DNA from: a virus
DNA length: 23,061 nucleotides
Virus record (IMG/VR): IMGVR_UViG_3300015374_000064
Span: 1 to 23,061 of that record
Direction: 5' to 3' (one strand)
The translations under genes and the position numbers were made by a program. Shown one piece after another: positions 1,043 through 3,480 of the stretch. Each line of letters opens with the position of its first letter. Position 1 is the stretch's first letter. The notes under the pieces were generated by a model, which made no database searches, was not told where the DNA came from, and saw only the letters and a list, made by a program, of their open reading frames with translations.

Positions 1043-1193
1043 GGCGCGCCACTCCCAAAGCTGAGGGATTGCGCTTGAGTGCCCGAGCTTCTGCTACCTC
1101 TCGCGACGAGGCCTTGACCTGAATCGTTCTGGTCATAGGCCCCGGAAACTCGAGGGCGATCTTGAACAGCTGCTGCTTCTTAGGAGTTCTCAC
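1035..1193 (-). CDS. Basic microprotein, 52 aa
   Basis: The frame opens with GTG at 1193, preceded by GGAG at a six-base spacing, and overlaps the 3' end of the 31-residue cysteine peptide by 14 bases. It ends at TAG (1035), inside the start of the next microgene. The product is soluble and basic: a lysine/glutamine N-terminus (RTPKKQQLFK), a strand (IALEFPG), another strand (TRTIQVKAS) and an alanine/arginine-rich helix (SSREVAEARALKRN). The pattern of a beta hairpin followed by a helix containing AxxxAxALKRNP is seen in small phage proteins of unknown role. No function is assigned. Confidence 0.65.
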   Translation of the reverse strand: MRTPKKQQLFKIALEFPGPMTRTIQVKASSREVAEARALKRNPSALGVARRA

Positions 1194-1275
1194 GATCGGC
1201 TCCGTACTCGCAGCACCTCACTCCGGAACCGCCGCAGTTCCAGCAACGGCGTAGCATGTTGAGAATGCCCTTCAT
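1180..1275 (-). CDS. Cysteine-rich 31-aa peptide with a DnaJ-like zinc knuckle
   Basis: The ATG at 1275 has a perfect ribosome binding site (TGGAGG, six bases upstream) within the leader shared with neighbouring units. The 31-residue product is MKGILNMLRRCWNCGGSG followed by VRCCEYGADRENS. CWNCGGSG matches the CxxCxGxG repeat of DnaJ zinc fingers, and a further CC pair follows, so it could bind one zinc ion. A free-standing single knuckle is short, so metal binding is inference. The next gene overlaps its end by 14 bases. It is the first gene downstream of structured RNA element A, so that RNA or its terminator would control it. Confidence 0.62.
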   Translation of the reverse strand: MKGILNMLRRCWNCGGSGVRCCEYGADRENS

Positions 1276-1297: not shown

Positions 1298-1439
1298 ACA
1301 AAAAGGAGAGTGACTTGGACGACGCAATGAAGTCCAAGTCAACGCCAGGACAACACAATGAAGTCCTGACTCTCTCAAAACGAGATGGCTCATCCAGCTC
1401 CAAAGAACTGGCGGCTCCAAAGAACCGATACCATCTCAC
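1298..1439 (-). ncRNA. Structured RNA element A: four hairpins in two branched modules
   Basis: On the minus strand, module 1 is closed by GAGATGG/CCATCTC (1431-1437 with 1382-1388). It encloses two adjacent hairpins, 1412-1427 and 1394-1411, that share the upper stem and loop TTCTTTGGAG but have different complementary lower stems (CGG/CCG versus CCAG/CTGG). Module 2 is closed by GAGAGT/ACTCTC (1369-1374 with 1306-1311). It encloses hairpins 1346-1368 and 1312-1340, both with GGAC/GTCC cores and 11-base loops of the form TTCATTGYGTY. The flanking pairs again differ but stay paired. The last stem is a perfect 9 bp. A U-tract follows module 2, as in an intrinsic terminator. Repeated loops with compensating stem changes are strong evidence for a selected RNA fold. 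Whether it is a free small RNA or a cis-acting leader is open. Confidence 0.68.
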
Positions 1440-1456
1440 TATAGGTCGTGGAAAAC
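1432..1456 (-). promoter_or_regulatory. Promoter-like repeat, copy A
   Basis: The minus strand reads TTTTCCAC, six bases, TAGTGAGA. It is one of four copies with the same spacing (WYTTMCAC-N6-TAGTGAGA). It lies between the 3' end of the membrane NUMOD1-like gene and structured RNA A. If transcription began at the G of TATAG, the RNA would start GUGAGAUGG and keep the whole 5' arm of its first closing stem. No sigma-70 -35 box is evident at 17 bases. Promoter function is inferred from conservation and position. Confidence 0.55.
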
Positions 1457-1462
1457 TCGCGA

Positions 1463-1837
1463 CTAAGCCGCTAGACACAACCTTTCGAAATGGTTCCCGG
1501 CAACATCAGGACGACGTCCATTGAGATGTTCCGAGAGGAGATTTTGAGGAAGCTCCATGTTCAACGCCGCTGAACGCTGTGACGTAAACACATCTCCCGT
1601 CTCCTTACAACGAACCACCCAGCTCGGCGGCCCTTGGCGATCAGCAGTGATGTAGTTGACCTTGTACATCATTACGTTCTTCCCTGCAGCGATGCTTTGA
1701 GAACCACTGGCCGTAGCTGTAATGGACACTCGCAAATTACTACGCGTGTACCACACGAACCCAGCAACTGCGGCAAGGGACCCTACGATGTAGAGACGCT
1801 TGTGCTTTCGTAGATGAATCAGAACTCTGTCCAGCAT
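1463..1837 (-). CDS. Membrane-anchored NUMOD1-like DNA-binding protein
   Basis: The 124-residue product has a basic N-terminus (LIHLRKHKRL), one transmembrane segment (about residues 15-29, LYIVGSLAAVAGFVWY), a variable middle, and a C-terminal domain (about 72-121) reading WVVRCKETGDVF, SQRSAALNMELP, LLSEHLNGRRPDV and GNHFERLC. That order (C-x-ETG-x-F-x-S, a helix-turn-helix, NGR, HFER) is the signature of NUMOD1-like modules, which are sequence-specific DNA-binding accessories best known from homing endonucleases. There is no nuclease domain here. A membrane tether on such a module is odd. It could place phage DNA at the membrane or be a cell-entry or exclusion factor, but both are speculation. 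The start is ATG with GGAG upstream, in the leader of RNA element B. The gene is flanked by two copies of the promoter-like repeat. Confidence 0.75.
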   Translation of the reverse strand: MLDRVLIHLRKHKRLYIVGSLAAVAGFVWYTRSNLRVSITATASGSQSIAAGKNVMMYKVNYITADRQGPPSWVVRCKETGDVFTSQRSAALNMELPQNLLSEHLNGRRPDVAGNHFERLCLAA

Positions 1838-1863: not shown

Positions 1864-1939
1864 AAAAAAGGTAAGAGGTGGGTTGCCTGGACGTGGATGT
1901 CTAGGTCCCGTGACACCAAAGGGTGCCTCCTCTCACTAT
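1864..1939 (-). ncRNA. Structured RNA element B: three-way junction with a terminator U-tract
   Basis: On the minus strand GTGAGAGG (1929-1936) pairs with CCTCTTAC (1871-1878), 8 bp with one G-U. It encloses hairpin 1912-1927 (6-bp stem, CTTT loop) and hairpin 1886-1905 (CCTxGAC/GTCxAGG, 6 bp around one mismatch), which competes with a GGAC/GTCC alternative (1905-1908 with 1889-1892). A run of six U follows the closing stem. The parts match those of element A: a CTTTGG-loop hairpin, a GGAC/GTCC hairpin, a closing stem beginning at the conserved GAGA, a U-tract, then TTTTTGTCCACC. B therefore looks like the single-copy version of a design that is doubled in A. Its role is unknown. A leader attenuator and an independent small RNA are both possible. 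Confidence 0.6.
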
Positions 1940-1954
1940 TAGGTGTGGAAAACC
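1930..1954 (-). promoter_or_regulatory. Promoter-like repeat, copy B
   Basis: The minus strand reads TTTTCCAC, six bases, TAGTGAGA. It has TAATAG where the other copies have TATAG, but the distance between the two conserved halves is unchanged. It sits just after the terminator of the 89-residue gene and just before RNA element B. The closing stem of that RNA begins at the G expected as +1. Confidence 0.55.
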
Positions 1955-1955
1955 T

Positions 1956-1984
1956 GCGAAAAGCTAGAGCCCTTGTGGGGCTCT
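1956..1984 (-). terminator. Intrinsic terminator after the 89-aa gene
   Basis: The minus strand has AGAGCCC, loop CACAA, GGGCTCT: a perfect 7-bp G+C-rich stem (1978-1984 with 1966-1972). It is followed by AGCTTTTCG, a short U-tract, eight bases after the stop codon. It insulates the gene from the promoter-like repeat directly behind it. Confidence 0.65.
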
Positions 1985-2279: not shown

Positions 2280-2305
2280 GGGTCTCACTATAGCCCGTGT
2301 AAATT
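2280..2305 (-). promoter_or_regulatory. Promoter-like repeat, copy C
   Basis: The minus strand reads ATTTACAC, six bases, TAGTGAGA, then CCC. It lies about 20 bases upstream of the ATG at 2261, so a transcript starting at the conserved G would have a leader of about 30 bases containing the ribosome binding site and no room for a structured element. It directly follows a terminator. Confidence 0.55.
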
Positions 2306-2315
2306 TTGCGATTTG

Positions 2316-2672: not shown

Positions 2673-2698
2673 GGGTCTCACTATAGGCGGTGTAAGAA
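2673..2698 (-). promoter_or_regulatory. Promoter-like repeat, copy D, in an inverted repeat
   Basis: The minus strand reads TCTTACAC, six bases, TAGTGAGA, then CCC. The initiation side GAGACCC (2673-2679) is the exact complement of GGGTCTC (2704-2710). Inside this, GCGGT pairs with ACCGC. The fold could be a terminator for the upstream lysis operon, since it begins right after the stop at 2715, or it could mask the RNA start. The 93-aa gene follows after a leader of about 25 bases. Confidence 0.52.
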
Positions 2699-2714
2699 CC
2701 GCGGAGACCCGGAA

Positions 2715-3133: not shown

Positions 3134-3480
3134 GGTACTAACCTCGCTTTCGGAAATGCTGCAGAACAGTTGATCTTGGACCGCTTGGTCAAGCTCCCCG
3201 ACGTTCTCTTGAACGTCCTTCGAGCTTTGCGAGCTGCCCGCTTCACATCCTCTTTGACCGAAGCTGCTTCGGTAACTGAGAATATGTACTGGGAGTGGGC
3301 CCTCTGGAACGCGGCGTTGTCAATGCGGTCGAGCTTCCCTCGCTCGCAGTCAGCTTTCTGTGCGGCGACCAGATCTTTACGACCTTCGTAGCTGGTCCAG
3401 AACACGTAGCCAACCAACCCGAGCTGAACCGCAAATATAGCGATCAGGATCCACTTGATGGACTTGAGTAGCTCATCCAT
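3130..3480 (-). CDS. Membrane protein with basic coiled tail, lysis-cassette neighbour
   Basis: I choose the ATG at 3480 because it overlaps the TGA of the preceding gene (TGATG). An upstream in-frame start would run back into that gene. The 116-residue product has one transmembrane helix (about residues 8-27, IKWILIAIFAVQLGLVGYVF) and then a predicted helical stretch beginning YEGRKDLVAAQKADCERGKL. That stretch contains DRIDNA, is strongly basic at 75-100, and leads to a C-terminus INCSAAFPKARLVP. This layout (membrane anchor, cysteine after about 50 residues, DRIDNA, xxCxxAFPxxxL near the end) is common in actinophage proteins beside holins. Such proteins are sometimes suspected of a spanin-like or lysis-regulating role, which is unproven. 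The two cysteines, C50 and the one near the end, could form a disulphide. Confidence 0.78.
   Translation of the reverse strand: MDELLKSIKWILIAIFAVQLGLVGYVFWTSYEGRKDLVAAQKADCERGKLDRIDNAAFQRAHSQYIFSVTEAASVKEDVKRAARKARRTFKRTSGSLTKRSKINCSAAFPKARLVP

Follow-up and report, generated by a model that had tools for sequence, protein, structure and literature searches.

A candidate non-coding RNA with paired hairpin modules behind a phage-type promoter motif in an actinophage-related viral contig

Background

The sponge RNAs of the CsrB/RsmZ type carry repeated identical hairpin tops on different stems and sequester a dimeric protein. CsrA is, to our knowledge, absent from most Actinobacteria. The put RNA of phage HK022, a pair of hairpins right at the 5' end of the phage transcript, causes RNA polymerase (RNAP) to read through terminators.

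Mycobacteriophages L5, D29, and StarStuff produce an abundant and stable non-coding RNA from an early promoter; its function is unknown, and the region proves toxic to the host when cloned (PMC5712189). A single-chain RNAP of the two-barrel type with a DFDGD motif, YonO, is encoded by phage SPbeta. The YonO start site adjoins a non-coding RNA, and its promoter sequence was left open (PMC5467207). The RNAPs of phage P23-45 recognize short phage-specific promoter motifs (PMC10770324).

Non-coding RNAs of phages are known as a kind, and they are rarely recognized because they contain no ORF and diverge fast. Here, element A of an environmental viral contig is proposed to be a non-coding RNA unit of about 140 nt that acts in trans and is made from a promoter of a phage polymerase, a reading to which we give a probability of roughly one half. 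Literature searches yielded no description of the promoter motif or of the clamped RNAs, and neither the class nor its clamp or promoter appears to have been described in the literature and RNA families searched.

Results and discussion

Genomic context of element A

The window, i.e., the whole stretch of 23,061 nucleotides that was analysed, is a 23-kb IMG/VR viral contig, a fragment without a polymerase gene. Its minus strand carries a siphovirus structural cluster, and a run of small genes follows downstream of the tail genes. The large terminase showed 81-82% identity to the terminases of Gordonia, Rhodococcus, and Streptomyces phages, and the virus apparently infects soil-type bacteria. 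Element A was located on the minus strand at 1437-1300, flanked by a 124-aa gene and a 31-aa ORF (Table 1). The product of the ORF directly behind element A (CWNCGGSG...CC) resembles a tiny zinc-ribbon protein. Homologues of the 124-aa gene matched a NUMOD-like DNA-binding domain, and a Pfam search with the window's own copy gave no match. DNA similarity search of the element A region against annotated phages gave nothing useful.

Table 1. Positions of elements A and B, their promoter-like motifs, and neighbouring genes in the window
Feature	Position	Strand	Remark
Promoter-like motif of element A, TCGCGAGTTTTCCACGACCTATAGTGAGA	1434..1462	-	repeat family D1; weight-matrix (PWM) score 37.4
Module 1	1382..1437	-	two hairpins enclosed by the closing stem (clamp) GAGAUGGU/GCCAUCUC; z -5.0
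Hairpin 1a, CGGUUCUUUGGAGCCG	1412..1427	-	
Hairpin 1b, CCAGUUCUUUGGAGCUGG	1394..1411	-	top as in 1a, base differs
First U-tract, GUUUU	1377..1381	-	behind module 1; from sequence
Module 2	1306..1376	-	closing stem GAGAG/CUCUC around two hairpins; z -5.5
Hairpin 2a, GUCAGGAC-UUCAUUGUGUU-GUCCUGGC	1344..1370	-	from fold
Hairpin 2b, GACUUGGAC-UUCAUUGCGUC-GUCCAAGUC	1311..1341	-	from fold; one extra closing pair
Second U-tract, terminator-like	1300..1304	-	from sequence
31-aa ORF, MKGILNMLRRCWNCGGSG...	1180..1275	-	GGAGG ribosome site soon after the U-tract; without own promoter
124-aa gene between elements A and B	1463..1837	-	membrane segment, and a region with homology to a NUMOD-like domain
Element B, second clamped RNA	1872..1936	-	clamp GUGAGAGG/CCUCUUAC, two arms, one UUUG loop; z -2.75
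U-tract of element B	1864..1869	-	from sequence
Promoter-like motif of element B	1931..1959	-	repeat family D1, weight-matrix scan
Promoter-like motif directly before 98-aa gene	2283..2311	-	repeat family D1, weight-matrix scan
Promoter-like motif directly before 93-aa gene	2676..2704	-	repeat family D1, weight-matrix scan

Fold and repeated hairpins

The minus strand at 1450-1285 folded with a minimum free energy of -64.3 kcal/mol (z -4.6), and none of 200 shuffles was as good. The original prediction had described two closed modules with two hairpins each on this strand, and these stems were recovered in the thermodynamic fold, with the module z-scores given in Table 1. Its closing stems of 7 bp and 6 bp need correction, i.e., to 8-9 bp in module 1 and 5 contiguous bp in module 2. 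The U-tract that it placed at the end is present after module 2 (UUUUU), and another one behind module 1 had been missed. The promoter motif and the clamp formed from the promoter's own GAGA had also been overlooked; the motif is the most informative feature and lies mostly outside the interval first considered. The tract of module 1 contains four U only. The closing stem of module 2 is followed by C-UUUUU, and since this stem is branched, it was not listed by a simple terminator scan.

Identical hairpin tops on different, complementary lower stems, as first noticed, were found in both modules. The hairpins of module 1 share GUUCUUUGGAGC, and below it one hairpin has a G-C pair where the other has A-U; a 12-nt internal repeat recorded at hairpin 1b was seen in 0 of 200 shuffles. 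The hairpins of module 2 share GGAC-UUCAUUGYGUY-GUCC, outside which A-U/U-A, C-G/U-A, and U-G/C-G changes occur. When the repeated cores were fixed and the other bases shuffled, z was -5.9 (0/1000); the repeats by themselves therefore do not account for the complementary bases around them. Raw folding energy was unexceptional in this GC-rich window, where a number of coding stretches were equally low. The case for element A is built on the z-score, on the compensated repeats, and on its sister loci.

Inverted repeats are present at the DNA level, and the region could be a cruciform, or a packaging or replication site, rather than an RNA. This is very improbable. The G-U pairs of the minus strand, e.g., U-G in hairpins 1a and 1b, turn into mismatches in the plus strand, and the latter folds more weakly (-50.4 vs -64.3); the promoter and the U-tracts lie on the minus strand, and many independent copies are found per phage.

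Promoter-like motif

The 29-bp motif is present in four copies in the window, with the consensus TCGCA-N5-TTACACGnCC-TATA(A/G)TGAGA, and in the copy upstream of element A the GAGA supplies the 5' strand of the clamp. In a scan of viral contigs, the motif was found in 41 stretches; about eight came from contigs with a single chance-like match, and the rest had one to five per stretch. The motif was carried by Gordonia, Rhodococcus, Streptomyces, and Arthrobacter phages at up to 28 copies per genome. Weight-matrix sites numbered 12 in OhMyWard, 15 in ReqiPepy6, 12 in Rima, 4 in RosaAsantewaa, and 28 in a 50-kb part of Qui, and 0 in shuffled sequence. The sites in isolate phages mostly lie about 20-45 nt upstream of a start codon, mostly of small genes. 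In Qui (L051, 12649-19735), more than 20 consecutive small genes nearly all have their own promoter copy.

The long form of the motif had one match in 84,980 bacterial and archaeal genomes, compared with 33 distinct sites in 19 phage loci, and a sigma-70 scan of the window showed no consensus at the motif sites and no -35 box. These results suggest that the motif is not a host promoter. The sole bacterial match (L173, Streptomyces sp. NRRL F-5122, 3424-3452) lies within GTTTCTATGCCCTGCGGGC-type repeats, and no polymerase match was obtained in that genome.

TATA(A/G)T does resemble a -10 box, and the motif might be read by host RNAP together with a phage activator, with TATAAT as the -10 element and the RNA otherwise understood in the same way. 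We regard this as unlikely because the -35 box is missing and hardly any bacterial genome contains the motif. Moreover, a sigma-70 start about 7 nt past TATAAT would omit GAGA, whereas the clamps include GAGA and often the preceding base. An A stands opposite the T before GAGA in 23 of 41 clamps, which would place the RNA start at or upstream of that base. A start inside TATARTGAGA, i.e., between TATA and RTGAGA, would fit better than a sigma-70 start.

Two-barrel RNA polymerase of related phages

Phages OhMyWard, ReqiPepy6, Rima, and RosaAsantewaa encode a protein of about 900 aa at the right genome end, annotated as 'RNA-dependent RNA polymerase' or as an HTH protein. ADFDGD is invariant in all aligned members, and HTH-like segments are found near both ends. 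The best PDB matches of the predicted fold in Foldseek were QDE-1 and the P23-45/P74-26 phage RNAPs, at E of about 1e-6 to 1e-5 (QDE-1, 3e-6; 8f72, 4e-6), with low global TM and moderate model confidence. By its DFDGD motif and its predicted double-psi beta-barrel fold, the protein is a two-barrel polymerase of the YonO/QDE-1 type. YonO is the nearest characterized relative, and both are single-chain two-barrel DFDGD enzymes (PMC5467207). The actinophage enzyme differs from YonO and the P23-45 RNAPs in the HTH-like segments at both ends.

In one scan, 519 polymerase loci were obtained. Of 18 motif-bearing contigs with a length of 40 kb or more, 16 had the polymerase, compared with none of seven contigs with a chance motif match. 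Conversely, all 15 contigs chosen only for the polymerase had motif sites (one to nine, all on one strand), and the reversed-pattern control found 0 in the same contigs. Both features occur in a single broad lineage of phages, and part of this co-occurrence could stem from shared descent. The motif is probably the promoter of the two-barrel phage polymerase, and a family of such enzymes thereby gains a concrete candidate promoter. Two contigs, G011 and G018 (loci L015 and L026), had 15 and 3 motifs and no polymerase match, which suggests that the contigs are fragments, or else that the polymerase was lost or replaced in these lineages.

The clamped RNA class

The class was defined by an upstream TCGCA..TTACAC..TATARTGAGA motif and a 5' GAGA that pairs with a UCUC directly preceding a U-tract. 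Element A has both, and it also has the duplicated top on different complementary bases that marks the twin-hairpin subset. By these features, elements A and B are members of the class, and the favoured reading for both is a small RNA with protected ends that acts in trans. Among 314 promoters with enough downstream sequence, 247 had a ribosome site and an ORF within 60 nt and 67 had none. Many of the 67 had the GAGA/UCUC clamp with a U-tract directly behind it and 40-160 nt of hairpins inside. From the sequence, about one promoter in six would drive a structured non-coding RNA instead of a gene.

A helix test (at least 7) gave 65 units, some of them coding units with ordinary terminators. Because this test also catches coding units, a curated list of 48 was used for the repeat test. 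Duplicated hairpins were found in 12 of these at p<=0.01, against 0.5 expected. Three copies of a hairpin top occur in Qui (L051+21567) and in L006, and two in L004, L024, L045, L044, and L055; L044+4853 presents two 11-nt loops on different stems. It is possible that the clamped units have no partner at all and are only end-protecting terminators or insulators, which tidy the transcripts between dense one-gene units. In these phages, an ordinary hairpin terminator stands at the end of many protein-coding units, and many clamped RNAs are without a repeated hairpin. We nevertheless hold this to be quite improbable, as ordinary terminators need no insert of 60-140 nt and the identical tops on different bases, repeated in a quarter of the curated units, would be left unexplained.

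Compensated change was also seen between phages. In the F2 family, five homologues retain the loop, and their stems differ by compensated changes, i.e., ACUUA/UAAGU, ACAUA/UAUGU, and AUACUA/UAGUAU around GCAA, and one has a GAGA loop. Element A is a double version of this design. Selection on RNA shape, which had been argued from element A itself, is supported by such sister RNAs, since they repeat the architecture with compensated changes.

Searches for known families and homologues

No tRNA or tmRNA with an ARAGORN-detectable cloverleaf was found in the window, and no Rfam 15 family (riboswitches, pRNA, GOLLD, ROOL, and others) reached the gathering score. The first view that element A is no tRNA, tmRNA, known riboswitch, or prohead RNA agrees with these searches. 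Rfam at E<=5 gave nothing over elements A and B themselves. With lax thresholds, the sister loci gave one sub-threshold match to the S15 leader (26.2 bits vs 39.5).

Exact hairpin searches, the form in which the proposed search for element A in actinophages was made, gave zero actinophage homologues at the sequence level. In viral contigs, the module 1 pattern had 13 matches, which lay in AT-richer contigs or in collagen-like coding repeats and were never accompanied by the promoter, and the module 2 pattern had none. As judged from these comparisons, the RNA class is common to related phages and the sequence of element A is not.

Further candidates were rejected. A NUUR tetraloop common to the class was not convincing, with 5 observed vs 1.6 expected, mostly duplicates within units. 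Complementarity between the loop and phage genes (CAAUGAA) was judged weak, i.e., four one-mismatch matches on the sense strand, all in coding regions. Element A shares repeated identical tops with the CsrB/RsmZ sponge RNAs; however, the GGA loop is missing in module 2 and in most sister RNAs, and membership was not accepted. Like element A, the HK022 put RNA has a 5' hairpin pair, but it is without the closing clamp and U-tract. The L5/D29/StarStuff RNA is the nearest documented phenomenon, being a stable phage non-coding RNA as proposed for element A. It differs in its region of about 500 bp at the right genome end and its promoter Pleft, no twin-hairpin or clamp design was reported for it, and the likeness is one of description (PMC5712189).

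Action in trans or in cis

As no sequence homologue of element A was found, action in trans is argued from the sister RNAs. The F1 family is a conserved RNA of about 120 nt (GACACGAAUG ... GUUUUCGUUGG) in nine phages (L003-8945, L006+1815, L010-771, L015-4828, L034+9596, L038-14578, L048+13297, L051+22987, and L069-3271), where it lies upstream of nine mutually unrelated proteins. Its consensus fold (A5, automatic MAFFT alignment) contained only two covarying hairpins, and no Rfam match at the gathering score was obtained where F1 was searched. In several clamped units, the next feature is another promoter and no gene. Both the F1 placement and these units favour action in trans.

The main rival is that the modules are the 5' leader of an operon starting with the 31-aa gene. 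The clamp and U-tract would then be an attenuator, and a phage or host factor on the paired hairpins would control read-through. A ribosome site and ORF stand close behind the U-tract of element A with no promoter before the gene, and in most clamped units the layout is the same, with an ORF 19-60 nt behind the U-tract and no promoter between. The F3 RNAs are located upstream of the same gene in five phages. Against this stand the several clamped units followed by another promoter, the unrelated genes behind F1, and the fold of element A, in which no alternative antiterminator pairing was seen. We consider the leader somewhat unlikely, the nearest competitor to a trans-acting RNA.

Proposed mechanism

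The structure, compensation, promoter motif, U-tracts, and class of element A are observed in silico, and from them we infer its transcription, start site, polymerase use, termination, and stability. With good support, transcription would start at or just before GUGAGA of the 1462-1434 motif, by the phage two-barrel polymerase. The transcript is predicted to fold into the two modules. Module 1 would pair the extreme 5' end, i.e., the promoter GAGA, with UCUC before the U-tract, and module 2 repeats the design. The clamp with the U-tract would act as an intrinsic terminator that holds both RNA ends in stems, and some transcription would presumably continue into the 31-aa gene and those behind it. 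As the weakest step, each module might show the same hairpin twice to a dimeric or multi-copy protein or RNA. By such a paired display, the RNA may act in trans, whether as decoy, as scaffold, or as an antisense display.

More tentatively, these units may be a new class of phage accessory genes whose product is RNA and not protein. They would be small and clamped, made by a dedicated two-barrel polymerase from one-gene promoters, and would carry two or three interchangeable hairpins as decoys or inhibitors of host proteins, e.g., defence or RNA-cleaving proteins. The shared promoter and clamp make such RNAs findable in this phage group. Gordonia phage OhMyWard and Rhodococcus phage ReqiPepy6 are cultured and carry both the motif and the polymerase, so the idea is testable.

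Embedded copies and tRNA cassettes

In loci L043, L044, L045, and L055, the homologue of the 124-aa gene holds the promoter and a clamped RNA in frame (L043:5074-5210, L044:5050-5190, L045:5050-5185, and L055:4071-4160). Translated in this frame, the embedded promoter gives the last part of the membrane helix (AGITCVIMRG), and the U-tract, in some of the loci, gives SFFS. One DNA stretch appears to serve as protein gene, promoter, and RNA. The embedded RNAs of L043, L044, and L045 had fold z of -4 to -5, and the apical motif of L045, UUCCAUUGGAG, resembles UUCUUUGGAG of module 1 in the window. The 124-aa gene of the window is without an inner promoter, and element A lies directly behind it.

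The same clamp cassette was found around tRNA-Ala in ReqiPepy6 (L048, 13199-13290) and around a tRNA-like fold in OhMyWard (L047, 9005-9090). In these cassettes, the acceptor stem is lengthened by the GAGA-type clamp.
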